DNA of 64,000 nt from Trichobilharzia regenti. Lineage: Eukaryota > Platyhelminthes > Trematoda > Strigeidida > Schistosomatidae. The DNA lies in assembly GCA_944472135.2 (NCBI GenBank), contig OX235268.1, positions 10,732,589-10,796,588 of the forward strand, given 5' to 3'. A program made the translations under genes and the position numbers. This document shows positions 2,766 through 64,000 of this stretch, piece after piece. Numbering within the stretch: the stretch's first letter is position 1; each line of letters begins with the position of its first letter. The notes under the pieces were generated by a model. The model made no database searches. It had not been told where the DNA came from and was given only the letters and a program-made list of their open reading frames with translations.

Positions 2766-4610
2766 GTTGCCCACAACGCAGCTTCAATTCATTAAAAATA
2801 TTATGAAAACACTTTGTAATCGTCAGGTTCAAAACCTTTTTCAATTGAAACCACTACTCGTTCATCGAGAATGCAAAGTTCAAGTAGCGTATTAAATTGT
2901 ATGCACTAATGAAATCATCTTCAAACATTTCAGTTTGTAATCTGAAATCTGGTTTCTTTAATCACTTTTACATCAGACCAAAAAAGTAAATATTCAAATG
3001 TTATCAGTGTGAAGAGATTTCATACCTTTGTATATATTAAATTTTCAGACTTTAATTTACTTGAATAACGATTTTGAATAGTTATATGTTGTATGGTATG
3101 AGCTTTGTGAGATATACACGCTGAACAGAATCTGTCGCATCGTTAATTTCGTTCAGAGAGTGGAAACACATTCCGTAATTTGTGATTACACCTAGAATTA
3201 ACAATACTTGGTGCAGGATAAATATTTAGATAACCCGAGAATGTGGTTGTACATCAAAGATATTATCATTATGAGAAAACACTTAAGTGTCAAGTATCAC
3301 ACTGTGGCTAATTGACTACCAAATTGAGAGGATCATTTAATTCCTGGATTTCTTTCGTAAATTTCTTCACACGCAGTATGCGTAAATATATTTTCCATCA
3401 GTCTAACTCAAATTATAGTAAGTAATGTGTAACAGAAGAACGCGGAGTGATGTCCACTCTAAAGCGAAATATTTTGACAGAATAAGAAACTTCCATAATG
3501 TTTAACGGTTACACTATAATAAAGAAATTCATAATCTTGTGAATACTTAAGACCGTTTCGGTAAGTGTAATTTTTACTGTGAATAGTGAGTTCTCTGAGA
3601 GTAGGCTGCATTTTGTGCATTTAATTCAGAATGAATTTTATACTGATGGAGGTAAAATGTTTAGAATGGTTAATCTGTGGCACCCTCATAAACGAGATGG
3701 TACTTGAGAGTGACATTTGCGAACAATCTCATATTATTTGTCTCATGGTTTTTATGAAAACTGTCATAAGTAATCAAGTATGTCAAACAGAAAAGACGAC
3801 ATATTTGATAGTGCAATAAATGGTAGTTCCGAGGTAGGAAAACACATGAGAATACTTGTGACTGTTTCTGTAATTTGAACAGTTGCCTTAAATTTAATTC
3901 AACCACCATCCTCATCTTTTCGAAATTGCCAATTTTACTAGTCTGCTGAATAGATTCAGTGCAAAGATTTCACCACAAATTCAAACGATATCTTTTTGAA
4001 AGGAATGTCACAATATGATATTCATTTTGCTTTCTAAGAAAAAAACTTAGTATGCATTTCAGTTCCATTTATAGGCTCATGTAATTACTGGTTGGGTCTA
4101 CCCGCATTGAGAGCTGAATACAGTGACGTAAGAATTAATGCACCTGAGGCAAGATTTGATCTGTAATGAATGAAGTTTAGATACGAAAGGCAAATAACTA
4201 AACAAATACTCAAAGTGATGTGGTGTTAATTTCCCCCGCCCCCGTCATATTCGTGAAATTTAACTTAATTGTGACAAATATAGTTCCGCTACTTCACTTT
4301 GCTGCTAGAATCTCTCACAATCTGCAAATTCTACCACAAACGTTTTCATTCTCAGACGCGATTGAAGGTGAGTGTAGGTATTTTATTGTGCTTTTCGTCA
4401 GCTCTTATTTCAGCAAAAATACTTGGAAACCGTATGGAATTCCATGGTATGTCAGGATTTCTCGTTGTTAGACCACTGGAGGCAAAATGAGGTCCTGAAC
4501 ATGGATGCTTTGTTTCATGGCACTCGCTTGTATGTTATCTCTAAGAAATTCATGTCATTTCCGAGACTGAAACCTGCATCACACGGTCGAAACAATCATA
4601 AACATTACAT

Positions 4611-4803
4611 TGTGTGCGTCAGTGGCCCGGTGGCTAGGACCCTCACCTACCAAGCACATGGTCGGAGGTTCAATCCCCTGCCGAAGAACTACTGATATCT
4701 CAGGTCGGCCTGCAAAATTCGGGCTATCGATGTCCATGCTGAAAATTCCATACTTGTACTCAAAATACAGTGTTGAATCAATCTGTAATCAAAAATAAAA
4801 ATA
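4611..4803 (+). mobile_element. tRNA-derived SINE, copy 1 (left arm only)
   Basis: About 193 bp with a tRNA-like head: an A-box-like segment at 4,622-4,633 and a B box (ggttcaatccc) at 4,667-4,677, followed by a tRNA-unrelated body shared with the copies at 5.3 and 15.9 kb and an A-rich tail (aaaaataaaaa). The mirror position in the right arm (about 61,960) lacks it, and the coordinate sum jumps by about 192 across this site. It was therefore inserted after the duplication, or lost cleanly from the right arm. No clear target-site duplication. I recognise no named family. Confidence 0.75.
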
Positions 4804-5304
4804 GGTTATTCGTTCTTTCAGTTGACCTGTCGTATTACTTAAAATGGATGGTATGGTTGGACATTAGGAAGAAACTAATTTCGTGTATCTAGTGCCCCGT
4901 TAAATGCAAACTGAATTCTGTCGTCGATGGAAACAATCGTGATTCGCGCCTGTACTTTCACTTCCAATAACTGTGATGATTGTAAGTGCGTCACTATAGT
5001 TATCACATGTGTAACTTATATTCGCTTTCTATTCGAATGCAGAAAATGAAATGTGAAAGCTGGCTGGATCTTGCAAAAATATATATGTGAACAGATTAAT
5101 ACCGTACAAGCTGAAATCAGAACTGTTTCAATGAGAAAACGGTGCTTTGAGTTCACGATACAGCACCAACATACACTTCGTATTTGAACTAAAGTTTATT
5201 ACCAATACGCCAAGATAGGAATCATATCGACAATAGCAAATTCTAACTTGTATTGATGAGAGCTGTGGACAACTGTGCAAGAAGTAAAAGCCGCACTAGG
5301 AATA

Positions 5305-5490
5305 TTGAATTTATATTTTTTAAATTTTCATCATAGCTTGTTCCACACAGTATTTTTGGCACAAGTGTGGAATTTTTAGAATGTGATATAGGTAACCCGA
5401 ATTTCGCAGGCCAACCATAGGTATCAGGTGTGGGATCGAACACCGGACCATGTGCATGATCGGCGACAGTCCTAACCTCTGTGCCTCACA
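5305..5490 (-). mobile_element. tRNA-derived SINE, copy 2 (left arm only)
   Basis: Same family as the copy at 4.6 kb in opposite orientation. The B box (tgttcgatccc on the minus strand) lies at 5,432-5,442 and the A-box region at 5,471-5,489. The body matches copies 1 and 3. The right-arm mirror (about 61,440) is an empty site, and the coordinate sum jumps by about 194. No clean target duplication is visible. Confidence 0.72.
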
Positions 5491-5904
5491 TTTGTTGACA
5501 TCACTTTAAATCACATGGATTCAACCTCAATGATTAAATTCATCAGTAGAAGTTTGGATAAACTTCAAAAAACTAACAACAATATATTTACTTCGTTTCA
5601 GTTAAGAGTAAGCATTCTATTTTTCGGACTTTATTGGCCACAAATTTTAACATTAACTTCTTGAAATTTCAAATCCCACGGAAAACAGCAAACATATGTC
5701 TTGGAAGAAAGGTTATCAGATTATATAAATACAGAAATGGATATATATCACAAGCGACTTCGTTTGTTGCAAATTCTTCTTGCATATATATATGTATGGT
5801 TGTAGCTAAACGCTGATAGCGTCGATTTCGAAACAGTTTTCATAATCAGAATGGATCTTGAGTACAGTAGCAAATATAAAGCAATTTCTTGGGACTGGTG
5901 CTTC

Positions 5905-6960
5905 ATGCAAATTACTATTCGCCTTGACAGTTTGAAGAGATACTTCTTAATCATTCTGAATTTCTCTCCTGTAATGCAAAAAAACGTACTTATTTACCAA
6001 CACCAAAGTAAGGTATTTGAAGGAAGTTTTATTATTGACAGGTTAAATCAGAAGATTACTGTGACGTGTTGGTGATAGTTATCAATGACTGTGCGAAATT
6101 TGGAAACCTTAGAAATCTCTTCAGTTTGTGCATTGAAATATTCTGCAATATTCACAGTTTGATAAATTGATGTCCCTATGACTAATTTTGTCCTCATTAT
6201 TTTGTGTGCAACATATCCAGTGGCCCGCATAAATCTCTGCACTACCATCAAAATGGTCAAACTCATTTGCACTTCTGATTGTTTCAATCGTATTTCTTAT
6301 ATCAAATGAGCAATACATGAACACGCGTGCATATTTAATTAGTTCCCCACTATATGCTATACAATTTTAGAAGGAGGTGAAAAAAAAATATGCAGAATTG
6401 GTTCGAATCACGGCGGGTGCGTACCGATGAAGACTCCAATACTTGAATGAAACAGTTGCAAAGCACTCCCAGGTTTTCTAATAGTTATCTAACTAATTTC
6501 ACCTCATGATGAAATCCTCCGATCAATCAAACAAAATCTCTACAAAATCAATACTTGAGAATTGGTTTTCTACTCAAATGCAGCAACCCTATGAAAAATG
6601 ATATACTTCAGATCAGTCCTTTGCATGCGAATTCTATATGGAGAAAAAATATTTTGGAAATACACTGACAATTTCTGTAATATATTTTCACATATTATGT
6701 GAAATAAGGCTTTGCTATTATTATTATTATTATTAATAATTTCTATCAAAAATTAATACGCTTATTTCAGACAGGGTTAAAAGTAAGGATATTTAATTCT
6801 TGTGCATTACTTTGCTACTATCTTCTGTGAAGACTTATTAATTTGAATAAGTTATACGATATATAAATAATAAGATCTTCTCGGTTTGGAATGAACACAT
6901 AACAAAGATGCTTTCGCGAGGATACAAACTGTATTATTAGGGTTATTACTATGAAACACA
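5905..6960. repeat. High-identity tract 1 of the palindrome (left copy)
   Basis: Over about 760 bases compared by hand with the mirror (about 59,420-60,476) I count about 15 substitutions, so about 98% identity. Just outside, at 5,500-5,900, identity falls to about 85%, and inside, from about 6,970, to about 92%. The outer edge lies about 20 bases from the point where a 547-bp insertion interrupts the right arm. The tract holds an Sm-alpha-like SINE and an (ATT)n run at about 6,716-6,740. Recent gene conversion is my preferred reading. Confidence 0.7.
6390..6540 (+). mobile_element. Decayed Sm-alpha-like SINE with hammerhead remnant (left copy)
   Basis: A B-box-like segment (ggttcgaatca) at 6,400-6,410 is followed by a cgatga segment at 6,425-6,430 and gaaac at 6,449-6,453, then an aggttttc-type body. 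This order (pol III box, hammerhead core, 'cccaggttttc' tail) matches the schistosome Sm-alpha family. The core starts with CCGATGA instead of CTGATGA, so the ribozyme is probably dead. The element is also present in the right arm and so predates the duplication. Confidence 0.6.
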
Positions 6961-7443
6961 TTCATTTTCTCTTCGAATACACAGAACTGAATGTATAAAC
7001 ATAAATATATAAAAGCTGGTTCAGTCAGATGTCGACTGTTTCAAGTAACATTAAAATGGTTACACGGATAATTACCGGGAACATTAGGATCAGAAAAGTT
7101 TCAATGATAAAACAATACTTTATGTTAAGAGACAACCACCGTTCACCCTTACAACCTGAAGAAATATCCTCAATACACAACTAATGTTCTTCCGAAATGT
7201 GAGAAATGTACTCATTTGCACCAACAAACATTATTTATTTGAAAAAGTGGTTATCACAGATGCGTCGACATAGGCGACATATTGATGAAAGCCATAAAGT
7301 TCTCAGCAACAAATAAAAGCCACATTCAATGTTTTTATCTCTACGACAGAATGTTTCTCCATGCTCATTTGATTTATTAAAAATTTGACAGATTCACTTT
7401 CACTGCCTCATTTTACCAGTGTCACTTCTCAAACACTACATTA

Positions 7444-8480
7444 TTTAAATAAGGTATTAAGAAGACAAATTTCGCGAGATTATACCGTCATTTCGTAGTT
7501 TCTTAACAACCGCTTTACAAACAACACGGTAGGTTAACAATAATAAAACAAAATAAAGATCATGACAATTACTCAGTTGGATAAAAAACAAAAGTACATA
7601 CTAATGACCAATCATATTTAGATAGGTCACGTAGTCTATGATAGGCAAAGATTGAAGTCTACTGTTTAGGCTGTATGTGATTAATCCAAAGTGTTTCCAT
7701 CACCTTTAATAACCAACCATGAATTAGAGTTATGTGATGAAATAATTGTGAAGCAGTCATTATTAATTATTTTGTGATCAGACATTAATAAGTGTTTTGC
7801 AATGCATGATGCTGGATTTCTTTTAAGATTAATCACACTGGGTTTTTTGTTTATGATTTAGTAGCCATTTTGGAACATGTTCTTTTCGACGACAACATTA
7901 GAACATTCTATTGGACCTACCTATATAGGTGTCGCCGCAGCTGCAGGTGAACTTGTAGATACAGTTTAAAGTACAGTCCACAGAATTTCGTCCTTTGATC
8001 GTCGGTACAGGGGTCGAAAATGTTCGGCGAGTGAGAAAAAGATATGCGACGTAGAACGTGCGTTTGATGGCTGATGGAAGTCTTTGAGTTGTCAACTGCA
8101 TAATCTGATCGACCTTGAATAGTAGGTTAACAAAATAGCTTTCTTTGGTACAGAAGCTGTCTTTTCGAGATGTTGTCTTTCTTTACTGTGACAAGTGATA
8201 AAATTTTCCGGATAACCATTAGCTAATAAAACTGAATGTATACATCGAAACTCATACATAAATGTGTCACTCGTTTATATCCTTCGGGCCATTGGGAACA
8301 AACATTTCACTAGGGAACGTTTATACTGGATAGGAACAAAACTGGCAAAATGAAAATATGGTCCAACCCATGTCTGTTTACGAAAAATAGACCAATGAAT
8401 CGTTCCATCATCTCCCCTAGTCATAGCAATATCCAGGAAACCAAGTTTGTTATTCGATTCTAGTTCGGAAGTCACTCGGT
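7444..8480 (-). pseudogene. Penelope-like element 3' fragment (RT thumb plus GIY-YIG), left ancestral copy
   Basis: On the minus strand the broken frames read, in order, a segment with SELESNNKLGFLDIAMTR (RT region after the catalytic core), a fingerprint with WVGPYFHFASFVPIQYKRSL, then FTCSCGDTYIGRSNR (GIY-YIG nuclease start), then a region matching EHVPKWL and a 3' untranslated tail ending near 7,444. PLEs couple a telomerase-related RT to a C-terminal GIY-YIG endonuclease. The fragment lacks the RT core and is broken by several frameshifts. It occurs in both arms. A younger relative lies at 50.2-51.3 kb. Confidence 0.75.
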
Positions 8481-9333
8481 TATTTATCAAAAATAAATTT
8501 CGTTTTCTCAGATGAGGGCGGTGAGTATTATAAATATCAATGTGTTGCTTTAACCTCACTTTTTAATAACAAGTTACTTCTGTCAAGCAATTTTAAACTG
8601 CACACGATGTCAGAGATTCATAGTTTGAGAGAAATATATGTAGCGAACCCGTTTGTTCCGATTATGGATATTAAGTCATTGTGTTTTAATACATGTGCAA
8701 CATGAATTCTCTATCCCTTCGAATATGTGTTTATGCAGGCTGATCATAACTATTTCTTGGATTCGTGCTTTTACACAAAAAAAGATTTCTCCTGCGAGAG
8801 AATAAAGAAATGTTTTTGATAAGTGTCAAGTTTTGTTTTACAGAATTTCTATATTGCCTCATCTACTCACACCTAGATTGAATATTTTAGCAGACTTTTA
8901 TTTAAGACGCCTAAATAGGGTAAATACTGTTAAAAAATCAATGCGCGATGTATTGGTGAGACTTATATATCACTAGGCGGTGGTTGAAAGCCCTAAGCAA
9001 CTTTCGAGTCTGTAGAATAGAAGGTTCCTCTGCATACAATTCACTTACATTTGGACACATTCAACTTCGATACTTCATTTCGTCCGTATCATTTGTTATA
9101 CACTATGAAATCCAAACAATTTTCTTTTTTTCTCAGAGGATTATTTTCGTAAGAATACTTAATTTTTCTGCATTTGATTAGAATCTACCTTTAAGGGCAG
9201 TATAATACTTGGAAGTTAAGTATTCCACAGCCTATAAGAACTTCATGTCTACAGACAAGTGATTTTCAAATAAACTGACTTCAATTTTTGTTAAAAATTT
9301 TTGACTATATGTTTTGATGATTAATAAAACCCG

Positions 9334-9387
9334 AATAAATCCGCTGAAGAAGCTGTGAGTTGCACAGCGAAACATTCAGAAATTATT
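9334..9387 (+). ncRNA. Hammerhead-ribozyme-like motif, left copy
   Basis: The conserved core boxes occur in order: CTGAAGA (9,344-9,350; fits CTGANGA), a hairpin with a perfect GCTGTG/CACAGC stem, then GAAAC (9,369-9,373). Flanking strands 9,334-9,343 and 9,377-9,387 can pair imperfectly as stem I. Stem III would be minimal (ACAT instead of a palindromic ACGT), which weakens the case for activity. Hammerheads of this compact type are known from Penelope-like elements and other retroelements. The repeat continues to about 9,500 with a segment (ctcaaattattccaggaagt) shared with the 44.4-kb insertion. Confidence 0.55.
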
Positions 9388-9884
9388 TTTTATTTTTTCT
9401 TAAGCATGATGAGATTGATTTAAATAATTGACAATGAATCAATCTGACTCGGTGCTCAAATTATTCCAGGAAGTTCGTATTACCTACGGTCTGAAAACTT
9501 ATAAGAACTTCACGGTTTGAAAAAATCATTAAACATCATCTAACTGCAGTTCCTTTAGTTTTGATTTTAGATATTTGTAAACACTATCAAGGATGAACTT
9601 TAGATCTGTATGTAGGGTAGCGGATAAATACTGATAACTTCCCTTTTAAAAAAGTGCTCATCTGCGAAATATATCTCAGTTTTACAGTCCCTTGCAGTGA
9701 TTTCCTATTTAAAATACAGTCTCTTTTGACAGGTTATGAAAATGTTCTCAACTTAGAGCACAATTAATCTCTGTAAAGTTCAAAGTGTACTTATTTACAC
9801 ACATCTACTTTCAGATATTTGAACAGTTTTATCACTGAGACGTTGAATCAGATGACATTCACAACAAAATAATCTGAAATGTGT

Positions 9885-9990
9885 TGATGATGGCTACGAA
9901 TGACCAAGCGACACAACAGTAGCTGTCCAGTACTCCCTGGTTTTCAATGGTTCTCTAACATATCAATCCGTCATTAACTCGTAAAAACAA
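9885..9990 (+). mobile_element. Fragment of Sm-alpha-like SINE (left copy)
   Basis: Shares the 'tgtccagtactccctggttttc' type tail region (about 9,920-9,950) and the following 'ggttctctaac' segment with the elements at 6.4 and 29.5 kb. The hammerhead part (ttgatga near 9,884) is badly worn. Present in both arms. Confidence 0.45.
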
Positions 9991-11860
9991 AAAGACCCAT
10001 TTAAATATCGAATCAGTTAAACAGAATGTAATTACATATTGATGGTATTTAATAACATTTTGACTAATTCACTTCCATCGCTTCAGTCTGTGTCATTTAG
10101 CGGTATCTTTCAATTTTCATACTTTTGTGATAGAATTCGAAAGAAGTGAGACTACTTTTGTATTACTGTTAACTACAATGATTATGTCTTTTATTAAGTT
10201 CCTTCATTATGATTTGAGTTTTAAGCTATAAGAACATGCAACCATTGCATTCAATTCTCTCAAACCATTTTTTCAACTGCTTTCATGACTGATGACGTAG
10301 TCCTTACCATGTGACGCACAAAAATTGAAACTTTTGCATACTTTTTGGGTTTCATTCCACATTGGAGACTATGAATGTCTTCTTGAGGCTTGTTGAGCCT
10401 GTGGTCTATTCATTAATCATTTGTTTCTAGTCTTGTTCCCTGAGTTCAAATGTTTCTCGTGTCTTATCTTTTGCTAACCATCACTCTGTAGCTTAAGATA
10501 CTGCTAAATGGGAGCTGTTAATTAAGTCTGCCGGCCGTTTGGAAAGTTACAAGTCTCCGCGGAGTAGAGACGAGCTAACATGGTTTCTAAATTCAAACTA
10601 TCTTACTTGTGTGAGGTGATGAATATATCCACAATGATCTCAGAATAATGAACGTGTACCATGTTTCTTGCATTCTGAGTAACATCTTCATCAATCGTTT
10701 CACCTGTGTGATGTCAGGCAACATTCTCTTTCTCGTGTATTCACTACGTAGAATTTATGATGCTAGTAATTTTAAAGTAGGTGCCATGCAGCATTGATTT
10801 GGGTTTAGAAGTGTTTATGAAACTGAACTATATAGTATAATAAAAAACTACATTTTACCATACGGTTGGAGCAGTTGCCAATTTGAGATGCTCTACGGTC
10901 GTGCAAAGATTCTGAACGGCGCAGAAGCAGCATCCTAAATTAGTGTTATTTTGTGTGATTCTAAACTCCGAGGTAGGTGTGTACGGAGTCTTCAGAGTGG
11001 TCGTTTCGTTGATCTTGAATTGAATTCATCATCCATGCCACCTGTCACTGTAACGATGATGACCTGGTAAGTGAAATCGACGACTTCAGTTTTATTTCTC
11101 ATACTGATGGTAATTTGAGTATGTTGCTTGCTTTTAATTACCTCCGTCTCCTCTAAGTTTGCGTGACTTCTTGCTATCGTCGTCGTTCCTGTCAGAAACT
11201 TTGTTTACTGCTATTATCTTCGCGTTTATGTGGGATGTAGCACTAATGATGCGCGAATTCCGGATTTCTCATTGCCTTTGCATCGATTCACCTTGTTTCC
11301 ATCTTCTCTGTGCTTTGGTGTGTTACATGATCTGGCTTATCATATTCAGGAAAGTCGATGTGATGGAGGTGAAGAATAAGCAGTCTGTCAGATGATGATG
11401 CGTATTCTCGTGATTTCATCGGCAGACAACATATTTCCCTACTATCCATGCCGCTCGGACGAAGTGCATTGGTTGCATGACATTATCTATCGACATCGCT
11501 GTGCTTGTTTTCAGTGTCTCTGTGAGCATTCAACCCGGTGCTTTATCTTCTCCAGCTAAGGTGTTCTTAATGACATAAGGGCTTTTCTGATTATCAGAGA
11601 GTTCGTATTAACTAGTAGTTTTCTGTTGGCCGATTCTAAATCTGTGCGATCATCTGACGTTAATCGACTCAAGAGTCATATAGTGTGATCACCCCTTTGA
11701 TTATGACGTTTATTATTTTGTAAGGTCTTTCATACTTGCAGCCTTCTATGGTTGTTTTCCGTCTTCTCATTAATTTCTTGTTGTTCAGCATGTCATGAAC
11801 TGAAATCAGATAATGTTTTGTGAGTTAGTAATTCAATTGGTTCCCCGACCCTTTTTATTT

Positions 11861-12091
11861 TACCGGTGTACAGGAATCTGTACAGAGATATTCAACATCC
11901 TGCTTCATTTTCATCAGTAAAATATCCAAACAGGCTTCTTTCCGCATTACTTGCATAAATTTCACTATCTCTCCTTGTAGTATTCATCGGTGACGTTGTC
12001 TGAATCCACCATCTTCTCTGATGAATAAACTGAAGATGCTTTATGTAGCTTCATGCCTCAAATTTTTTGTGTTGAACTGAAATTGTGGTCT
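11861..12091 (-). pseudogene. Possible Ty3/gypsy-like integrase zinc-finger remnant, left copy
   Basis: On the minus strand a broken frame reads KMKQDVEYLCTDSCTPVK, resembling the 'FYWpgMnqDVe.yc.sC' part of the integrase zinc-binding domain of Ty3/gypsy elements. Flanking sequence (about 10.9-13.0 kb) is less AT-rich on this strand and full of broken frames, consistent with a worn pol gene, but I cannot place other domains. The forward frames here (11,159-11,395; 12,541-12,849) are then antisense shadows. Confidence 0.35.
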
Positions 12092-12999
12092 GCCTTAGCT
12101 TTATTTGAGTACCTTCCACTTGATCTAGAATTCTTATTTCTCTAAATAGTGATGTGAGAGCACACCCACTCATCTTTTACATCTCCTTTACGATAATCAT
12201 CTTATCCATATTCTTTAGATTGAGGCAAGGTGTGTCTGATTTTAACTGTGTTGATCTTTCGGAATTCACGTCACCTAACGTTTATTTCTGTGCTTTTTGA
12301 CGCTGCCTACAATCATTTCATTCATAAAGGCTCTGGGGTTTTCGCCATTCATTTCACCCAAAACACCTCGGTAAATGTTGCCTAACCTTTACATGTATTC
12401 ACCTCCTAGTTTGACTTGCGTTTACTCCACCATCTAAATTTTTGTGTTGCTGACTGTATGAGGACTTGTCCATTTGCATTTGTCTGTGGAACACTTTCTT
12501 ATTTTGCTAGTTTGCATTTTCAGCAATAGCGTGACAATTCATGATTTCACTTCTTCCACTTATTGAGTTCAATCACATTGTCAGATTTCTCAGTAAAACT
12601 GATTCCCAGTGTATGAGATCTTTCGATGCACTTGTTAACTTTGAAACTTATATACAGCCTGTGTGCTCGTTATTTTTGTTCACTTGCCTATTGTGGATTA
12701 TTGACGCTTTAATTACTAATATGGAGAATTCATCTGTCATCCCTGGTTCTGAACAATCTCATGTCACATTTTCAAATCTTTTTCTGCAATCTCGTCAACC
12801 CTGTCTGCATCAAACATGGAGTAAACTTTCAGTTTTTAATGCGCAATAATCTTTCATTGTAAAAAGACATGGGTGAACTGGCCTCTGAGACGTTTTGCCA
12901 CCAACAACCTTAAATTAGGGTCCCTGCAGGTAATAAGAGTGTAGATTATTGTTCTCAGTTTAAATTCTCATATGCAATTGATTTGTTGCTGAAATATGT

Positions 13000-15732: not shown

Positions 15733-15940
15733 ATTATTATTTCATCCACTATCCATGAATAAATTATATTTAAGAACACAATATTCAATGAAGAGACTTT
15801 TTTCAACAAATTAAATAATAAACTGTACGATGATATTTATATGGTTTTGTAATGAATTGTAACGCTTAAATATATGAAGTAATAGTAGCAACAAATGTAA
15901 TTATAATGTTTGTGATCATAATCATAGTAATATATCAAGT

Positions 15941-16143
15941 GCATTGTTGGCACAGTGGTTAGGATTTTCGCCGGTCATGCACATGGTCCGAGGTTCGATC
16001 CCCTACCGACGCAAACCTGATATCTATGGTCGTCCTGCAAAATTTGGCCTACTGATATCACATGCTGAAAACCCCGTACTTGTACCAAAAAATACGTTGT
16101 GCAATCAAGCTGCAATCAAAAAAGGTAGCAAAAGCAAAACAAA
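15941..16143 (+). mobile_element. tRNA-derived SINE, copy 3 (left arm only)
   Basis: Best preserved copy. The A box (tggcacagtgg) lies near 15,948-15,958 and the B box (ggttcgatccc) at 15,992-16,002. The family body follows and then a long A-rich tail. It sits inside a left-only block of about 425 bp (about 15,733-16,156); its right-arm counterpart near 49,540 is contiguous without it. The open frame at 15,944-16,237 is an accidental reading of the SINE. Confidence 0.78.
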
Positions 16144-16156
16144 TAATTTGATGTAC

Positions 16157-50171: not shown

Positions 50172-50182
50172 TAACAAATAAC
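50172..50182. repeat. Target-site duplication, copy A (taacaaataac)
   Basis: Perfect 11-bp direct repeat with 51,288-51,298, bounding the Penelope-like insertion. The corresponding left-arm sequence near 15,105-15,116 has one diverged copy only. Confidence 0.85.
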
Positions 50183-51287: not shown

Positions 51288-51298
51288 TAACAAATAAC
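51288..51298. repeat. Target-site duplication, copy B (taacaaataac)
   Basis: Second copy of the 11-bp duplication. The sequence outside it (actttgtcatg) resumes similarity to the left arm (attttgtcata). Confidence 0.85.
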
Positions 51299-54200
51299 AC
51301 TTTGTCATGTCGGAGAACGTGATATTTTCACCAGGCAGTGTGTGAAACCAAAACGCCATATTGTTCTGTGCAACCAGAATAGGAGACAGCGGTATTGATA
51401 TTTGTGCATCACATGGCAAAAACCATGTAACTATCAAAGTAAAGCTTGCAATCATTTGATCAGTGAGTATATAATGGTTGAAAAGAACTGAGTGCAAATG
51501 ATGATTTCCATTTGTAGCCAAAGTTTTAAACAGGATTCAACGTAATAATGATGGGAATAATGACGCGAATAAAAAAATGATAATACACTATACTAGCATT
51601 CTCACTTTTTTCCGTTGCTAACATGAAAAGTCAAATGTAAATGATACTCTAGAGCAAGATGTAAACTACTGAATACCTGAAACATCAAATATGAATGAGT
51701 CCAGATGTAACGATATTCCACTAATTTGCGAGACATTCTATTTAACATGTTCAAAAGTCGAATGAGTCTTCCACTTGTCGCTCAACCGATTTTAAGTTTC
51801 AAGAGTACGTATCACATTAGGTTGTTGTCTGAGTTGATGGGTATTCGATATTGTAAACCCAAATTTTACATTCAAAAGACGTTTGTACAGTCATATACCC
51901 TCCCTTGGTCTATTAAGAGAAAATCAACTGCTGACTTCTTAATCACCTATTACTTATATTTTTAACCTCTATTTTATCACCCATTATTCTTATCACATCT
52001 TCATTTATAACGTATTTTATTTACTTTCCTTATAATCTGGGATTACGTAATCGATTCCTTTGTTTTTTAGCCTACTACTAGACTAGTTCCACCAGAACAT
52101 TTGTTTGTTTAATCACGCAGTCTTCCGTTATTCAGGTTATCACAGATTGCCCACGTTTTCATCCATATTAATAATAGAACCATTATTATCATTACTAATA
52201 TCACGACTAATTGCACAATTTATATGCACCATCTTATTATTCCATTGACGAAACACCATGATCGGTTTATATTTGAATATTTTTTTGTAAAGTTATGTAT
52301 TTTAGAGTTAAGCCTGATGAGATCTAATTGAAAACAGTATTGTTGGCTGAAATGTGTTGTTCTAATTTTTACTATGAGAATATCTAATGTATGTCTTTTA
52401 TCTGTTTTAGAATTTATCGTAATTGTGCGTATTTAAAAGTATTTTCGCCCAATAAGGAAACCGAATTAAGCTTTCAATGAATATCTATTTCAAGAACTTG
52501 TTATACTCTGTCCTTGTATTCGAGATCTCAGTATTTCCAGTATTTATCTGTTTCCCCGTATATTGGTGCATGATTCAGTCGGTACCAGACAGATTCATTT
52601 TTGATAAAGGTCTATTTCCATATATTTATTTTATCGATCACTGATGAAAAAATTGAAGGTATATGGCGCACAGAAAAGCTGTAGTGACACTATATTCATA
52701 GTCAGAGCCAATTGAATTTGAAAAGGTAGCACACGATATTTTGAAAACCTGACGTATTTCAACTAAAAGCAGACACATTGCTTACCGTCAGCTTTCTCTA
52801 AAGTAAATTATAAAAATTTTGAAAAAAACATTGTAAAAAATCTTTGTAAAGGTGAGACAATCGAAATGCAATTTAATAACGCAGAATGCTGGACCACCTA
52901 TCCTTAAAAAAGCTTCAATTCCAATGAAGCTTGAGTTATTTACCGATCGTAAGCAAGTTTATTCATTCGGAACACATTATAACTGCTACACGGGAGTATC
53001 TAATTTGCATGGCTATCCACTACTTCTGTAAAGATAAGATCAAGCCTGGAATAACTAATACTCTAAATGCTAAATGCTCTTGTCAAATTGTATTCATTTT
53101 GTTGTAGAATCTAGTCAAAGATGATGAATAATCAGAATCAATGAAGACGGTGAATACTCAGCCCACTTTCACCTCAAGTTTACGTATCTACAATGAGAAC
53201 TGAATGAAATAATTCCATTTCTGATATACATATATCTTTACATTTCTCCACGTGCATTCGAAGGAAAGATGACTGCATGTCCATTTGAAGTTCTAAAAAC
53301 CTGTAAAACCTAAAACTGCTTGAAGAGGTAGACCATCACTTAAAGTGCAAAGGAGATTAACCTCAACTCAGTTGTCTTCTTGACTGTAGCTACTTACAGA
53401 AGAAAGCCTGAATAATTCATATATTTCTGCAACAAATCAATTGCATATGAGAATATAAACTGAGAAGAATAATCCACACTCCTAATACCTGCAGGAACCC
53501 TAATTTAAAGTTGTCGGTGGCAAAAGTTTCAGAGGCCAGTTTGCTCATGTCATTTTACAATGAGAGGGAATTTCGCATGAAAACACTGAATATCCACTTC
53601 ACGTTTGATGCAGACGGGGTTGACAAGATTGTAGAACAAGATTTGAAAATGTGACACGAGACTGTTCAAAATCGGGTATGACAGATAAATTCTCCATATT
53701 AGTAATTAGGGAGTCATTAATCCACCATAGGCAAGTGTACAACAATTACGAGCAGATAGGCTGCATATAAGTCCAACGTTAAAAGTTGGATAGGTAGGTC
53801 GCAAACACTGGGAATCAATTTCTTTGAGAAATATGACAGTGTGATGGAACTCAATAAATGGGAGAAGTGAAATCCCGAATTGTCACGCTCCTGATAAAAA
53901 CGCAAACTAAGAAAATAAAAAAGTGTTCCACAGACAAATGCAAACAGAAATGGATAAGTCCTCATATAGTCAGCAACACAAAAATTTAGATGGTGGAGTA
54001 AACGCAAGTCAAACAAGAAGGTGAATACGTGTGAAGGCTACGCAGTACAAATCGAAATGTTTTCGGTAAAATGAATGATAAAAACATCTAAGCCTTTATG
54101 AATGAAATGTTTGTAGGCAACGTCAAAAAGCACAGGAATATACGTAAAGTGACGTGAATTCTCAGACATTAACACAGTGAAAATCAGACACACAACGCCC

Positions 54201-54329
54201 TATCCTAAATAATACGGATAAGGAGATCTAAAAGATGAGTGAGTGTGCTCTTACATCAACATTTAGAGAAATGTGAATTCTAGATCAACTGGAAGGTACT
54301 CAGATAAAGTTATGGCAGACCACAATTTC

Positions 54330-54560
54330 AAATCTACACACAAAATTTGAAGCATGAAGCTACAAAATTCATCTTCAGTTTATTCAGCAGAAAAGATGTT
54401 GGAGTCAGACAACATTACCGATGAATACTGCCTGGGAAAAAGGTCTCTGAAAGAGATGCGCGAAAACGCTTGTTTGAATTTTTACTGGGACGAAATGAAT
54501 CAGGATGTTGAATATCTCTGTATAGATGCCTGTACGCCGGTAAAATAAAGAAGGTCGCTG
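54330..54560 (+). pseudogene. Possible Ty3/gypsy-like integrase zinc-finger remnant, right copy
   Basis: Mirror of 11,861-12,091, better preserved. The frame at 54,354-54,548 contains NFYWDEMNQDVEYLCIDAC, close to the FYW..M..DV...C..C pattern of retroviral-type integrase HHCC domains, and is followed by a KKVAEPMQKLS-like linker in another frame. The spacing of the last cysteines (C-x3-C) differs from the usual C-x2-C. No RT or protease part is recognisable. Confidence 0.4.
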
Positions 54561-56434
54561 AACCAATGCAAAAGCTAAGTTGTGAAACATAATCAAATTT
54601 CAGTTCAAGACATGCTGAACAAAAAGAAGGTGATAAAAAGAAAGAAGACAACCGTATAAGGCTGCAAGTATGAGAGTCCTTACAATGCTAGACCGTGGAT
54701 AATGATATAGTAAATGTCATAATCAAAGAAGTTATCACACTTAAGGACTCTTGAGTCGATCGAAGCCAGATGATCGCTCAGATTTAGAATCATCCGAGAG
54801 ATAACTACCAGTTACCACGAACACTCTGATAATCAGAAAAGCCTTTTCGTGATTGCGAAAACTCTAGCTGGAGGAGATCAAGCACAGGGTGAAATTCTCG
54901 CAGAGACACTGAAAACAAACACAGCGACGTCCACAGATAATGTCATGCAACCAATGCACTTCGTAAAAGCGGCATGGATAGGGGGACAATGTGTAGTCTG
55001 CCGATGAAATCACCAGAATGTACATCATCATCTGACAGACTGCTTATTCTTCACCGCCATCACATCGACTTTCCTGAATATGATAAGCCAGATCACGCAA
55101 CAGACCGAAGCACAGGGGAGATGGGAATAAGCTAAATTGATGCAAAGGCAATGAGAGATCCGGAATTCGTGAATCATTAGTGGCACTTCCCACATAAAAC
55201 GCGAAGAAAATATCAGTAATCAAAGTTTCTGATAGGAACAACGACGATAACAGGAAGTCATGCAAAAGTAGAGAAGATGAAGTTAATTAAAAGCAAGCAA
55301 CAAACTCCAATCACCGTCAGTATGAGAAACTGAAGTAGCCGATTTCACTTACCTGGTCACCATCGTTAAAATAACAGGTGACATGGATGACGGATTCAAT
55401 TCAGAATCGAAGAAACCACCACTCTGAAGTCACTAGGAGATCCGTACACACCTACCTCGGAGTTTAGAATCACACATAATCGTATAAATTTAGGATGCTG
55501 CTTCGGCACCGTTCAGAATCCTTGCGCGACCGTAGAGCATCTCAAATTCGCAACTGCTCAGACCGTATGGTTAAATGTGGATTTTCATCATACTTTATAG
55601 TTCAGTTTCGCAAACACTTCTAAACCTAATTCAATGCTGCATGATGCCTACTTTAAAATTACCAGCATCATAAATTCTACGTAGTGAATACACGAGAAAG
55701 AGAATGTTGCCTGACATCACACAGGTGAAACGATTGATGAAGATGTTACTCAGAATGCAAGAGACATGGTACACGTTCATTATTCTGAAAACAGTGTGGA
55801 TACATTCATCACCTCACGCAAGTAAGATAGTTTGAATTTAGGAACCATGTAAGTGTGCCTGTACTCCGCGGAGACTTAGAACTTTCAAACGGCTGGAGAC
55901 TTAATTAACAGCTCCCATTTAGCAGTATCTTAAGCTACAGAGTGATGGTTAGCAAAAGATAAGACACGAGAAACATTTGAACTCAGGGAACAAGACTAGA
56001 AACAAATGATTAATGAATAGACCACAGGCTCAACAAGCCTCAAGAAGACATTCAAAGTCTCCAATGTGGAATGAAACCCAAAAAGTATGCAAAAGTTTCA
56101 ATTTTTGTGCGTCACATGGTAAGGACCACGTCATCAGTCATGAAAGCAGTTGAAAAAATGGTTTGAGAGAATTGAATGCAATGGTTGCATGTTCTATAGC
56201 TTAAAACTCAAATCATAATGAAGGAACTTAATAAAAGACATAATCATTGTAGTTAACAGTAATACAAAAGTAGTCTCACTTCTTTCGAATTCTATCACAA
56301 AAGTATGAAAATTGAAAGATACCGCTAAATGACACAGACTGAAGCGATGGAAGTGAATTAGTCAAAATGTTATTAAATACCATCAATATGTAATTACATT
56401 CTGTTTAACTGATTCGATATTTAAATGGGTCTTT

Positions 56435-56540
56435 TTGTTTTTACGAGTTAATGACGGATTGATATGTTAGAGAACCATTGAAAACCAGGGAGTACTGGAC
56501 AGCTACTGTTGTGTCGCTTGGTCATTCGTAGCCATCATCA
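56435..56540 (-). mobile_element. Fragment of Sm-alpha-like SINE (right copy)
   Basis: Mirror of 9,885-9,990 inside high-identity tract 2; essentially the same sequence. Confidence 0.45.
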
Positions 56541-57037
56541 ACACATTTCAGATTATTTTGTTGTGAATGTCATCTGATTCAACGTCTCAGTGATAAAACT
56601 GTTCAAATATCTGAAAGTAGATGTGTGTAAATAAGTACACTTTGAACTTTACAGAGATTAATTGTGCGCTAAGTTGAGAACATTTTCATAACCTGTCAAA
56701 AGAGACTGTATTTTAAATAGGAAATCACTGCAAGGGACTGTAAAACTGAGATATATTTCGCAGATGAGCACTTTTTTAAAAGGGAAGTTATCAGTATTTA
56801 TCCGCTACCCTACATACAGATCTAAAGTTCATCCTTGATAGTGTTTACAAATATCTAAAATCAAAACTAAAGGAACTGCAGTTAGATGATGTTTAATGAT
56901 TTTTTCAAACCGTGAAGTTCTTATAAGTTTTCAGACCGTAGGTAATACGAACTTCCTGGAATAATTTGAGCACCGAGTCAGATTGATTCATTGTCAATTA
57001 TTTAAATCAATCTCATCATGCTTAAGAAAAAATAAAA

Positions 57038-57091
57038 AATAATTTCTGAATGTTTCGCTGTGCAACTCACAGCTTCTTCAGCGGATTTATT
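57038..57091 (-). ncRNA. Hammerhead-ribozyme-like motif, right copy
   Basis: Mirror of 9,334-9,387 within high-identity tract 2. CTGAAGA and GAAAC boxes and the stem II hairpin are unchanged. Confidence 0.55.
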
Positions 57092-57939
57092 CGGGTTTTA
57101 TTAATCATCAAAACATATAGTCAAAAATTTTTAACAAAAATTGAAGTCAGTTTATTTGAAAATCACTTGTCTGTAGACATGAAGTTCTTATAGGCTGTGG
57201 AATACTTAACTTCCAAGTATTATACTGCCCTTAAAGGTAGATTCTAATCAAATGCAAAAATTAAGTATTCTTACGAAAATAATCCTCTGAGAAAAAAAGA
57301 AAATTGTTTGGATTTCATAGTGTATAACAAATGATACGGACGAAATGAAGTATCGAAGTTGAATGTGTCCAAGTTTAAGTTAATTGTATGCAGAGGAACC
57401 TTCTATTCTACAGACTCGAAAGTTGCTTAGGGCTTTCAATCACCGCCTAGTGATATATAAGTCTCACCAATACATCGCGCATTGATTTTTTAACAGTATT
57501 TACCCTATTTAGGCGTCTTAAATAAAAGTCTGCTAAAATATTCAATCTAGCTGTGTGTAGATGAGGCAATATAGAAATTCTGTAAAACAAAACTTGACAC
57601 TTATCAAAAACATTTCTTTATTCTCTCGCAGGAGAAATCCTTTTTTGTATAAAAGCACGAATCCCAGAAATAGTTATGATCAGCCTGCATAAACACATAT
57701 TCGAAGGGATAGAGAATTCATGTTGCACATGTATTAAAACACAATGACTTAATATCCATAATCGGAACAAACGGGTTCGCTACATATATTTCTCTCAAAC
57801 TATGAATCTCTGACATCGTGTGCAGTTTAAAATTGCTTGACAGAAGTAAATTGTTATTAAAAATTGAGGTTAAAGCAACACATTGATATTTATTATACTC
57901 ACCGCCCTCATCTGAGAAAATGAAATTTATTTTTGATAA

Positions 57940-58905
57940 ATAACCGAGTGACTTCCGAACTAGAATCGAATAACAAACTTGGTTTCCTGGATATTGCTAT
58001 GACTAGGAGAGATGATGGAACGAATCAGCGATGTATTTTTCGTGAACCTACATGGAGTGGACAATATCTTCATTCTACCAATTTTGTTCCTATCCTGTAT
58101 AAACGTTCCCTTGTGAAATGTTTCGACACACACTTTCAGTTTTATTAGCTAATGGTTATCTGGAAAATTTTATCACATGTCACAGTAAAGAAACACCACA
58201 TCCCGAAAAGACAGCTTCTGTAACAAAGGGTGACCAGATTATGCAGTTGAAAGTTCAAAGACTTCGGTCAGCCATTAAACGCACATTCTACTCCACATCT
58301 CTTTCTCTCACTTGCCGAACATTTTTGATCCCTGTACCTACGATTAAAGAACGGAATTCTGTGGACTCTACTTCAAACTGTATCTACAAGTTCACCTGCA
58401 GCTGCGGCGACACCTATATATATGTAGAGCCAATAGAATGTTCTAATGTCGTCGTCGAAAAGAACATGTTCCAAAATGGCTACTAAATCATATACAAAAT
58501 CCCAATGTGATTAATCTTAAAAGAAATCCAGCATCATCCATTGCAAAACACTTATTAATGTCAGGTCACCAAATCAATATTAATGACTGTTTCAAAGTTA
58601 TTTCACATGACTCTAATTCAAGGTTATTGAAGGTGATGGAAGCACTTTGGGGGGATTAATCACATACAACCTAAACTGTGTGTACAAAAATCAATAGACT
58701 TCAATGTTCGCCTACTCTGGACTGCATGACCTATCTTAATATGATTGGTCATTAGTATGTACTTTTGTGTTGTTTATTTAACTGAGTAAATTTCATGAAC
58801 TTTATTTTATCATTGTTAACCATGTTAGTTGTAAAGCGGTTGTAAAGAAGGTACGAAATGATATCATCTCGCGAAATTTGTCTTCTTAATGCTTTATTTA
58901 AATGT
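57940..58905 (+). pseudogene. Penelope-like element 3' fragment, right ancestral copy
   Basis: Mirror of 7,444-8,480. The frame at 57,933-58,148 carries SELESNNKLGFLDIAMTR, and that at 58,118-58,486 carries FTCSCGDTYI. It is shorter than the left copy: a segment of about 70 bp that encodes KKAIFINLPFK in the 51-kb copy is missing near 58,225. Frameshifts and stops make it non-functional. Confidence 0.75.
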
Positions 58906-59419
58906 TGTAGTGTTTGAGAAGTGACACTGGTAAAATTAGGCAGTGAAAGTGAATCTGTCAAATTTTTAATAAATCAAATGAACATGGAGAAACATTCTGT
59001 CGTAGAGATTACAACATTGAATGTGCCTTTTATTTGTTGCTGAGCTGTTTGTGGCTTTCATCAATATGTCACCTATATCGACGCGTCTGTGATAAACACT
59101 TTTTCAAATAAATATTGTTTGTTGGTGCAAATGAGTACATTTCTCATATTTCGGAAGAACATTAGTTGTGTATCGGGGATATTTATTCAGGCTGTGAAAG
59201 TGAATGGTGGTTGTCACTTAACTTCATCCCAGATAGTTGTTATGCTATCTCATGAACACAAAGTGTTGTTTTATCGTTAGAACGTTTCTGATCCTAATGT
59301 TCCCAGTAATTATCCATGTAACCATTTTAATTTTGCATGAAACAGTCAACATTTGACTGAACCAGCTTTCATATATTTGTGTTTATGCATTCAATTCTGT
59401 GTATTCGAAGAGAAAATGA

Positions 59420-60476
59420 GTGTGTTTCATAGTAATAACCCTAATAATACAGTTTGTATCCTTGCGAAAGCATCTTTGTTAAGTGTTCATTCCAAACCGA
59501 GAAGATCTTATTATTTATATATCGTATAACTTATTCAAATTAATAAGTCTTCTCAGAAAATAGTAGCAAAGTAATGCACAAGAATAAAATATCCTTACTT
59601 TTAACCCTGTCTGAAATAAGCGTATTAATTTTTGATAGAAATTATTAATAATAATAATAATAATAGCAAGGCCTTATTTCACATAATATGTGAAAATATA
59701 TTACAGAAATTGTCAGTGTATTTCCAAAATATTTTTTCTCCATATAGAATTCGCATGCAAAGCACTGATCTGAAGTATATCATTTTTCATAGGGTTGCTG
59801 CATTTGAGTAGAAAACCAATTCTCAAGTATTGATTTTGTAGAGATTTTGTTTGATTGATCGGAGGATTTCATCATGAGGTGAAATTAGTTAGATAACTAT
59901 TAGAAAACCTGGGAGTGCTTGGCAACTGTTTCATTCAAGTATTGGAGTCTTCATCGGTACGCACCCGCCGTGATTCGAACCAGTTCTGCATATTTTTTTT
60001 TCACCTCCTTCTAAAATTGTATAGCATATAGTGGGGAACTAATTAAATATGCACGCGTGTTCATGTATTGCTCATTTGATATAAGAAATACGATTGAAAC
60101 AATCAGAAGTGCAAATGAGTTTGGCTATTTTGATGGTAGTGCAGAGATTTATGCGGGTCACTGGATATGTTGCACACAAAATAATGAGGACAAAATTAAT
60201 CATAGGGACATCAATTTATCAAACTGTGAATATTGCAGGATATTTCAATGCACAAACTGAAGAGATTTCTAAGGTTTCCATATTTCGCTCAGTCATTGAT
60301 AACTATCACCAACACGTCACAGTAATCTTCTGATTTAACCTGTCAATAATAAAACTTCCTTCAAATACCTTACTTTGGTGTAGGTAAATAAGTACGTTTT
60401 TTTACATTACAGGAGAGAAATTCAGAATGATTAAGAAGTATCTCTTCAAACTGTCAAGGCGAATAGTAGTTTGCAT
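59420..60476. repeat. High-identity tract 1 (right copy)
   Basis: Mirror of 5,905-6,960. Two overlapping frames are shared by both copies (here 60,057-60,260 and 60,094-60,333). In the first, at least three of five nucleotide changes alter the residue, so there is no sign of coding constraint and the high identity is better explained at DNA level. Confidence 0.7.
59841..59991 (-). mobile_element. Decayed Sm-alpha-like SINE (right copy)
   Basis: Mirror of 6,390-6,540 in high-identity tract 1, differing by about two bases. Same broken hammerhead core. Confidence 0.6.
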
Positions 60477-60498
60477 GAAACATCAATCTCAAGAAATT

Positions 60499-61045
60499 TC
60501 TATACATCCAGATGAACTGTCGACAGGATTTGACAAAATAGTTCTGAAATATTTGGGAGCCCAAATATATATTCTGGATACTAACAGTTTGAACAGACAT
60601 GAAGGTGTGATGTTAGCTGATGCATAGGAAATTCTTATTAATGAATGAAAATGGATGTGTATCACTAGTTAATAATACATTGTCAACATTCCCGACTGTC
60701 CATATCTTCTTATAGAGACATTAAGAAATGTCTTACAGCTATTTACCCACACGCATACACACTATGTTTAAAGGTGTTTAACAAGGGTAGATCAATATTT
60801 GTAAGTCCGAGGTAAAATTTTGATGACAACTCATACAATCTTGTTTATTATGCTTGTTGATACTTGTTTTATGACTGATGATTGGACAAAGGTTTCAAAA
60901 ATAAGGGATGTTCCTTTTTTTATGTAAACCTCCGTTATGTTAATTTCGATTAATTTTCCTGAGGAAGTTCGGACAAGATTGACGAACGAAACGTTGGAAT
61001 TATCTACTTCAATCTCTCTGAGATTTTACAAATATAGCGTTTTAC
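60499..61045 (+). mobile_element. 547-bp right-only insertion carrying a hammerhead-like motif
   Basis: The left arm (about 5,880) is contiguous where the right arm has this extra block. The junctions show aaatt at 60,494-60,498 and 61,046-61,050, a possible 5-bp target-site duplication (7 bp with one mismatch: agaaatt/acaaatt). Near its 3' end lies a hammerhead-like motif (60,948-61,005). No protein coding is visible. It could be a PLE-derived or retrozyme-like non-autonomous element. The insertion lies about 20 bases from the edge of high-identity tract 1. Confidence 0.65.
60948..61005 (+). ncRNA. Hammerhead-ribozyme-like motif with palindromic ACGT stem III
   Basis: CTGAGGA (60,959-60,965) is followed by a GTTCG/CGAAC stem II, then GAAAC and GTT (about 60,988-60,995). 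The ACGT after GAA is self-complementary, as in minimal hammerheads thought to act as dimers. Strand 60,949-60,959 (gattaattttc) can pair with ggaattatc directly after the core as stem I, with two bulges. All invariant core bases I can check are present, so this is the best ribozyme candidate in the window. Confidence 0.6.
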
Positions 61046-62310
61046 AAATTGCTATTCATTTGTTGCTGTACTCAAGATACATTCTGAACATGGAAACTGT
61101 TTCAAAATGGAAACTATCAGAGTTTAGCTACAACCACACGTATATATGCAGGAAGAATTTGCAACAAACGAAGTCGCATATGATATAGATCCTTTTCTGT
61201 ATATAATATGATATGATAACCTTTCAACGAAGACATTATATAGCTGTATTCCGTGGGATTTGAAATTTCAAGAAGTTAATGCTAAATTCTGTGGTTAATA
61301 AAGTTTAAAAAATAGAAAGCTTACACTTTTCTGCAACGAAGTAAATTCATTGTTGTTAGTTTTGAAGTTCAGGCAAACTCCCACTGATGAATTAATATCA
61401 TTGATGTTGAATTCCTGACATGTTAAGTGATATTAGCAAATGTGAATTTTACTTCTTGCACAGTTGTCCACAGTTCCCATCAATACAAGTTCGAAATCGC
61501 TACTGTCGATATGTTTCCTATTTCTAAGTATTGATAATAAACTTTAGTTCAAATACAGAGTGCATGTTCTTCCTGTCTCCTTAACTCAAAACACCGTTTT
61601 CTCATTAAAACATTTCTGATTTAAGTTTTTACGGTATTAATCTGTTCCCCAATTTATTGTTGCATGATCCAACCGCAATTGGTGAAAATAAATTCAGCTT
61701 TTTTCTCCGATTTTCACATTTTATTTTCTGCATTCAAATAGAAAGTGAATATAAGCTGCACATGTATTTACTATAGTGACGTACTAAGAATAATCACAGT
61801 CACTTGAACTGAAGGAACATGCGAGAATCACGAATGTTTCCATCGACGATAGAACTCAATTTATATTTATCTAGCTACTAGATAGACGAAATTAATTTCT
61901 TCCTAATGTTCTACCACTGCATTCATTTTAGTATTACGATAGGTTGACTAAAGTGACGAATAGCCCAGATATAATGTCTATGATTACACAAATGTGTGAT
62001 GCAGGTTCCAGTCTCAGAAATGGCATGAATTTCTTAAAGACAACATAGAAGCGAGTGCCATGAAACAAAGTGTCCACGTTTAGGACCTCCTGTTGCCTCC
62101 AGTCTTCTAACAACGAGAAATCCTTAAACACTATGGAATTCCATACGGTTTCCAAGTATTTCTGCTGAAATAAGAGCTGACAAAATGTACAATGAAATAT
62201 CCACGCTCACCTTCAATCTGATCTGATAATAAAAACGTTTTGGTAGAATTTAAAGGTTGTGAGAGATTCTAGCAGCAAAAGGAAGCAGCGAAATTAAATT
62301 TGTCACAATT

Positions 62311-62480
62311 AAGTTTAATTCATTTACCTCGCTAAACCAGAAATAATGCTGGTAAAGAGGAAAGGTTGGGCATGGGGCTAGCAACTCCATCCTGTAAAAT
62401 AGACACTGCTGCGAGAACTTCAAGCCACTAGCTTGAAGCCCTATGTTCCACTGGGAAACGTGAAGGAAAAAAGTTTAATT
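62311..62480 (+). mobile_element. 150-bp right-only retroelement fragment with 10-bp target-site duplication
   Basis: aagtttaatt occurs at 62,311-62,320 and again at 62,471-62,480. The left arm (about 4,255-4,275) has a single diverged copy and no insert. The 150-bp insert ends in an A-rich run (gaaggaaaa), typical of the 3' end of a non-LTR element or SINE inserted on the plus strand. Its middle (gaggaaaggttgggcatggg) is of a kind seen in schistosome LINE ends, from memory and not checked. Confidence 0.8.
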
Positions 62481-64000
62481 CCACGATTATGACGGGGAGT
62501 GGGAGGAATTAACGTCTTCACACCATTTTGAGTATTTGTTTAGTTATTCGCCCTTCGTATCAAAACTTCATTCTTTACAGATCAAATCTTGCCTCAGGTG
62601 CAAGAATATCTGGCGTCACTCTATTCAGCTCTCAATGAGGGTGGACCCAACTAATAAATACATGAGCCTCTAAAAGGAACTGAAATGCATACTAAGTTTT
62701 TTTCTCAGGAAGCTAAACGACGATCATATTGTGACAAACCTTTCAAAGAGATATTGTTTGATTTTGTGGTGAAATCTTTGCAATGAATCTATTTAGCAGA
62801 CTAGTAACATTAGCGGTTTCACAGATGAGGCTAGTTGTTGAATTAAATTTAAGTCAACTGTTCAAATTACAGAAACAGTTACGAGTATTCTCATTTTTTC
62901 CCACCTTGCAACTACCATTTACTGCGCCATCATATATGTCGTCTGTTTCTGTTTCATATAGTTGATTCCTTATGACAATTTTCATAAAACCAAGTTAAGT
63001 GGACAGAAGACCATGAGACAAATATTAGATTGTTCGCAAATGTCACTCCTAAATACCGTCTCGTTCATGAGAGTGCCACAGAGTAACCATTCTAAACATT
63101 TTCCCTCCATTAGTATAAATGTCATTCAGAATGTCTAAGTTGCATTCTGGAAAATAAAATGGACAAAATGCAGCCTAATCTCAAGAAACTCAATATTCAC
63201 AGTAAAACTTGCACTTACCGAAACGGTCTTAAGTATTCACAAGATTATGAATTTCTTTATTATAGTGTAACCGTTAAACATTATGGAAATTTCTTATTCT
63301 GTCAAAATACTTAGCTTCACAGCGGACATCACTCCGCTTACACATTACTTACTATTATTTGAGTTAGATTGAGGGCAAAATATATTTATGCAAACTGTAT
63401 GTCAAGAAATTTACGACAGAAATCCAGGAGTTAAATGATCCTCTTGATTTGGTAGTCAGTTAGCCACAGTGTGATACGTGACACTGAAGTTAAGTATTTT
63501 CTCAAAATGATAATATCTTTGATGTACAACCACATTCTCGGGTTACCTAAATATTTATCCTGCCCCAGTTATCGTTATTTCTAGAAGTAATCACAATTTA
63601 CGGAATGTGTTTCCACTTTCTGAACGAAATTAACGATGCGACAGATTCTGTTCAGCGTGTATATCTCACAGAGCTCATACTATACAACATATAATTATTC
63701 AAAACTTTTTTCAAATAAATTAAAATCCAAAAACGCAAGGATGTGAAATCTCTTCACACTGATAACATTTCAATATTTACGTTTTTGAGCTAAAGTAAAA
63801 GTAACAGAATAAATCAAATGTCACAATACATGTTGAAATTTTTGAAGATGATTTTATTAGTCCAAACAAACTAATACGCTATTTGAACTTTGCATTCTCG
63901 ATCAACGAGTAATGGTTTCAATTGAAAAAAGTTTTGAAACTGACGATCACAAATTGTTTACATCATATTTTTAATGAATTGCAGCTGCATTGTAGGCAAC

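Follow-up and report, generated by a model that had tools for sequence, protein, structure and literature searches.

Sex chromosomes supply the best-known large palindromes (PMC8981503, PMC3403216), and the human Y palindrome P6 shows gene conversion with a mean minimum tract of 2,068 bp and with GC bias (PMC3723533). Schistosomes have a ZW system (PMC8662593). For Schistosoma mansoni, the main text of a study of segmental duplications (PMC10900676) lists 968 interchromosomal pairs longer than 20 kb, 93.9% of them touching a subtelomere, with a median Jukes-Cantor distance of 17.33 and with chromosome 7 the richest. Intrachromosomal pairs were dropped from that study, and 'inverted', 'palindrom' and 'gene conversion' are absent from its main text. 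Among the part of the matches considered in the open-access literature, we found no report of palindromes or inverted duplications in schistosomes, nor of segmental duplications in them that undergo conversion. Here we describe a palindrome that runs through and beyond a 64,000-nucleotide stretch (the window) of contig OX235268.1 in the assembly GCA_944472135.2 of the schistosomatid Trichobilharzia regenti. We are largely confident that the window holds, on a probable autosome, two neighbouring members in inverted orientation of a segmental duplication that is old, dispersed and low in copy number, and that the two arms have exchanged sequence.

Throughout, L and R denote the left and right arms, contigs are labelled C1 to C9, and coordinates are those of the window, negative values lying to its left. 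The window corresponds to C7:10,732,589-10,796,588 in the searched assembly of 954 Mb and 548 contigs. Self-BLAST of the window reproduced the collinear reverse-complement blocks noted in a preliminary description, which run from 2,766/64,000 to 29,114/35,937 at ~80-97% identity. That description put the arms at 26-28 kb and had the similarity running past the window. The similarity does run on, and when 40 kb was added on each side a chained alignment gave considerably longer arms, with L spanning -33,805 to 29,114 (~63 kb) and R spanning 35,937 to 92,191 (~56 kb), or ~126 kb in total. The L-R chain consists of 38 blocks and 44,156 alignment columns, of which one block (444 columns) at the far end is a dispersed retroelement match, and its collinearity is beyond what chance could produce.

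Outside six discrete tracts the arms are 86.3% identical over 36,060 sites. The earlier figure was ~85-93% in most places; the higher identities are confined to those tracts. One-arm insertions, reported previously and evident in the chained alignment, include two on R (Table 1), and for several of them the empty site shows an overlap of 10-15 bp. These insertions and the 13.7% divergence outside the tracts indicate that the L-R pair is old. Furthermore, no run of N occurs in the 144 kb examined around the palindrome, so it was not joined across a gap. The three observations together bear out the proposal of an old duplication rather than a fresh hairpin, and we regard the palindrome as real, large, old and probably autosomal.

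Genome probes taken from the arms revealed at least seven long copies of the unit, namely L, R and five others on C7, C3, C2 and C5 (termed C7b, C3a, C3b, C2 and C5; Table 1). Copy counts and absences are bounds, since the best 40 of 3,341 and the best 40 of 6,386 candidates were scored for the copy-finding probes; two probes for which all nine of nine candidates were scored matched mainly the few unit copies, the rest being a small number of short, weak hits. C7b and C3a are less than 0.3 Mb from the start of their contigs, whereas the five remaining copies are interstitial. Homology longer than 20 kb between different contigs was confirmed: one or other arm matches C5 across tens of kb, and probes and fetched pieces establish it for C3 and C2. 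The other copies lie at Jukes-Cantor distances of ~0.13-0.15 from L. Each arm thus belongs to a dispersed segmental duplication, old and low in copy number, in which no genes were detected, and the pair is not a lone local inverted duplication.

Over 12,506 sites common to four copies, L shares 88.5% identity with C7b, compared with 86.7% for R and 85.9% for C5, and two-versus-two site splits number 217 for L with C7b, 128 for L with R and 106 for L with C5 (C5 rows in this comparison, and in the codon scan described below, exclude matches more than 94% identical). Trees built from 18.5-22.5 kb and from 11.0-13.5 kb unite L with C7b (100/100 and 100/99) and C2 with C3a (99/99 and 100/100), leaving R apart. 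In these two best-covered blocks the closest relative of L is C7b, which lies 10.6 Mb away, and not R. At the inner end of the unit, a tree of all seven copies has C3a with C3b as its sole supported group.

The flanks of the arms also differ. A probe across the outer end of L finds a full match in C7b, whereas R, C5 and two places on C3 start to match only at the end of the arm (all nine of nine candidates scored). Likewise, the 1,346 bases outside L have a full-length match in C7b alone, at 94% identity, among the best 40 of 3,976 candidates for a segment that contains a high-copy repeat. R and C5 remain collinear past 92,191, to ~98.3 kb at 72-83% identity and to 99,551 at 69%. The ends therefore differ among copies, in that R and C5 continue where L and C7b switch to another flank, and there are no fixed common termini.

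A two-state model detects six L-R tracts of 96.6-98.8% identity that total 4.8 kb (Table 1), with one nearly identical core of ~1.2 kb. As a control, the same comparison was made for each of the other 14 pairings of L, R, C7b, C5, C3a and C2, with C3a and C2 represented by their fetched parts only, C3b left out, and limits of length and position but no identity filter applied. Windows of 200 aligned sites that are at least 97% identical make up 18 of 202 in the L-R pair and none of 925 in the 14 other pairs, which also yield no model tracts. Across 8,482-9,913 in tract 2, L and R are 99.0% identical, while either arm is 87.3-88.2% identical to C2 and C3a. Trees inside the tracts unite L with R (100/100 for tract 2 and 100/99 for tract 1). 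Only within discrete tracts is R clearly the nearest relative of L, and L of R, and the tracts are best read as arm-to-arm gene conversion. Because the L-R difference ranges from 1.2 to 3.4% per tract and the stretch 9,170-10,230 includes two runs, 587 and 473 bp long, without any difference, several exchange events of different age are likely.

A number of observations weigh against this interpretation. C7b lacks 3.4-10.8 kb, the interval of the two main tracts, which C2, C3a and C5 cover in part. The two main tracts show no bias towards GC (AT-to-GC 15 and 37; GC-to-AT 16 and 33). On C3, two equal-scoring matches lie 9 kb apart in direct orientation, and inversion may thus not be a condition for near-identity. 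The block at 3,116-4,600, available for four copies and absent from C7b, pairs L with R, if with weaker support (93/94; not starred) than the tracts receive, and an older exchange or a mixed history is therefore possible there. Since the flank of L is 94% identical to that of C7b but only 88% identical inside the unit, exchange between distant copies is also possible. Mis-polishing of one arm with reads from the other may be a source of the tracts.

The centre of the palindrome had been described as a 6.8-kb spacer (29,115-35,936). This is correct only in part, as unit sequence enters it from both sides (Table 1), and of the remaining 29,312-33,716 only a portion is accounted for. R is without the 2.7-4.9 kb that the C5, C3 and C7:0.14 Mb copies carry adjoining 35,937. 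Because the unit runs past both of the inner ends originally given, the spacer is in part unit sequence left by unequal deletions. Near the palindrome centre, 31,146-31,535 and 32,096-32,599 match adjacent parts of C7:151,123-151,999 in opposite orientations. These paired stretches are possibly a mobile element or a trace of the original inversion point.

Table 1. Features of the palindrome (window coordinates) and long copies of the unit elsewhere in the assembly (contig coordinates).
Feature	Position	Strand	Remarks
L inside the window	1..29114	+	continues left to C7 ~10,698,784
R inside the window	35937..64000	-	continues right; beyond 92,191 collinear with the C5 copy, not with L
Tract 1	5913..6986		19 differences in 1,074 sites; R partner ~59,395-60,468
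Tract 2	8416..10764		28 differences in 2,342 sites; R partner ~55,660-58,007
Identical runs in tract 2	from 9,170; from 9,758		587 bp; 473 bp
Tract, weakest of the six	17093..17469		13 differences in 377 sites; shorter, less similar
Two adjacent tracts	24902..25770		24,902-25,176, 5 differences in 275 sites; 25,285-25,770, 10 in 485
Tract	26197..26425		4 differences in 229 sites
Unit continuation past the L end	29115..29311	+	matched in the 5 other copies examined (C7:0.14 Mb, C5, C2, both C3)
Possible L-side unit sequence	31146..31535	+	matches C7:151,621-151,999 (87%) and partly C5:51,487,550
Unit continuation on the R side, in pieces	33717..35936	-	collinear with C5, C3 and C7:0.14 Mb
R-only insertion	50179..51291	-	contains a Penelope-like (GIY-YIG) retroelement frame
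R-only insertion, 538 bp	60508..61045		14-bp overlap between the L matches there, as expected of a target-site duplication
C7b copy	C7:85-152 kb		near contig start
C3a copy	C3:0.21-0.29 Mb		near contig start
C3b copy	C3:6.24-6.30 Mb		large gaps
C2 copy	C2:53.31-53.36 Mb
C5 copy	C5:51.43-51.49 Mb

Several other arrangements of unit sequence were seen. Close to its start, C3 carries unit pieces in both orientations over 82-290 kb, those at 82-175 kb being additional to C3a, and the two equal-scoring C3 matches mentioned above are at C3:279,283 and 288,294. Inside the C7b copy, C7:141,464-149,834 and 151,985-160,356 form an inverted pair with 8.4-kb arms that are 99.6% identical, and this pair stops exactly at a run of N (160,357-160,522). 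It represents a recent fold-back or else an artefact of the contig end.

The architecture of the locus could be explained in other ways. It is possible, but in our judgement rather unlikely, that the palindrome came first, with the unit folded back or duplicated in inverted orientation at 10.7 Mb and the arms later seeding the other copies (L giving rise to the copy at C7:0.1 Mb and an R-like arm to those on C2 and C3). Such an origin would account for inverted adjacency at a single site and is compatible with the short inner branches of the trees. In addition, the oppositely oriented unit pieces near the beginning of C3 and the inverted arm of the C7:0.14 Mb copy suggest that this end of the unit may be subject to repeated inversion. 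However, the outer flank that L has in common with C7b is more simply explained by a block copied together with its flank, R runs past the end of L in company with C5, and the centre is too rearranged to reveal a fold-back loop. The differing ends, with R and C5 going on where L and C7b change flank, also make it highly improbable that the arms are two insertions of a giant mobile element. The presence of a few large copies across several contigs would fit such an element, but the only conserved frames detected are retroelement-like. That the palindrome is an assembly artefact, produced by a hairpin read or a head-to-head scaffold join, is hardly credible. Palindromic artefacts do exist, and the 99.6% inverted arm on C7 that ends at a run of N could be one. 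Nevertheless, the palindrome described here has no N run around it, has diverged by 13.7% outside the tracts, carries one-arm insertions, and has different outer flanks with different relatives on its two sides.

The ZW system of schistosomes and the prominence of palindromes on sex chromosomes had raised the possibility that this palindrome is Z- or W-linked; it would then be comparable to mammalian Y palindromes. The genomic evidence makes this very unlikely. Specifically, u2af2 (encoding the U2AF large subunit), which in Schistosoma belongs to the oldest Z/W stratum and is a proposed sex-determination gene of schistosomes (PMC8662593), scores above the cut-off at three places, all on C8, whereas the window is on C7; partial matches below the cut-off are mainly on C8, with one on C9. 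This assignment carries the linkage of u2af2 over from Schistosoma, and the three matches are open single-frame copies that could be retrocopies. The sizes of C1 to C7 (197.6, 110.7, 125.8, 108.1, 67.1, 77.7 and 58.5 Mb) broadly track S. mansoni chromosomes 1 to 7, for which chromosome ends at 88.0 (1), 45.7 (2), 49.8 (3), 46.5 (4), 24.7 (6) and 19.9 Mb (7) are given in Table 1 of PMC10900676. Chromosomes 2 and 4 are close in size and swapped in rank. C8 (165.7 Mb) is extra to this series. On these grounds C7 is probably autosome 7. The arms, moreover, carry only transposon-like or unidentified frames, and their identity outside the tracts is well short of what a sex-linked palindrome of this type would lead one to expect.

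The three stop-free U2AF large-subunit frames on C8 score equally, are spaced ~13.4 kb apart within C8:108,471,319-108,499,457 and have partial copies nearby. Further partial copies, in both orientations, are found at C8:113,760,292-113,896,840. The gene looks amplified on C8, the probable sex chromosome.

As to origin, non-allelic recombination or break-induced copying would have spread the copies, in part near chromosome ends, and two unit members would at some point have come head to head. Once linked in this way, the inverted arms would pair and repair breaks from each other, each possibly acting as template, and this process would generate kilobase conversion tracts, at least one of them recent. 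The structure would persist as a by-product that is homogenised in patches, and no coding function is evident. A more far-reaching version is that an autosomal palindrome without detected genes has long been exchanging sequence between its arms, that inverted linkage and not overall similarity is what enables conversion between old dispersed duplicons, and that the palindrome was perhaps even the source of the copies. We put this forward only tentatively.

The unit offers little sign of genes. The window contains 33 listed frames of at least 90 aa, and a Pfam search with 20 of these 33 gave three weak matches and no family over the cut-off. In two other copies, as in the window and the sequence flanking it, frames of at least 130 aa look retroelement-like or lack a clear identity. 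Labels other than Penelope/GIY-YIG were assigned from motifs. Of eight relatives of a retroelement frame in the window, three carry an organism name, in each case Trichobilharzia. In a codon-constraint scan the top scores were not above those of six column shuffles: two segments exceeded a score of 12, compared with 2-6 in the shuffled data. At a threshold of 8, 50 segments were observed and 31-46 after shuffling, and there may be a weak coding signal in the unit. No conserved coding frame beyond the retroelement-like ones was detected in the unit.

Noncoding searches were similarly sparse. No tRNA was found in the window, and no two or more tandem copies of TTAGGG occur in the three stretches searched. 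Over 144 kb, Rfam returned four hammerhead ribozymes only, all outside the window. These are of type I and lie at L010:4040-4362, L013:9911-9955 and L014:185-232, with two close together on opposite strands; presumably they are linked to retroelements. A Penelope-like piece of 970 bp at about -32,257 to -31,291 (L009:7743-8709) occurs near full length at no fewer than 38 places with 99-100% identity, among the best 40 of 5,943 candidates, and is a recently active, high-copy element.

Autosomal inverted low-copy repeats provide a parallel for this locus. Like the GOLGA core duplicons of human 15q25 (PMC6436712), which are tied to inversions and structural instability, it combines duplicons with inverted arrangement, but it differs in its older divergence and its flatworm host. 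Mammalian sex-chromosome palindromes (PMC3723533, PMC8981503) likewise have inverted, linked arms and kilobase tracts (0.2-2.3 kb here). In contrast to these, the present palindrome is probably autosomal, is 86% identical outside the tracts (compared with >99%), has undergone patchy conversion and has no detected genes where the arms of sex-chromosome palindromes bear germline genes, and its two main tracts are without the GC bias of human P6 (PMC3723533). The duplicated unit itself resembles the S. mansoni segmental duplications (PMC10900676), which also exceed 20 kb, occur on several chromosomes, lie in gene-poor regions, feature chromosome 7 prominently and have some copies near ends. They are similar in age as well, with ~13-15 here against the S. 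mansoni median. The T. regenti unit differs in that no duplicated gene family was detected in it, and the window locus is interior, 10.7 Mb into C7.

An inverted segmental duplication with conversion is a kind of structure already known, and the arm-specific exchange together with its control may be the most valuable part of these findings. The picture of duplicated blocks drawn for S. mansoni is extended to Trichobilharzia and to the intrachromosomal inverted pairs filtered out there. For work on the sex chromosomes, a doubtful lead is removed and C8:108-114 Mb is indicated instead. The seven old copies constitute a natural control experiment in which inverted linkage can be compared with dispersal at similar age for its effect on gene conversion, and the comparison is unconfounded by known genes or by sex linkage.

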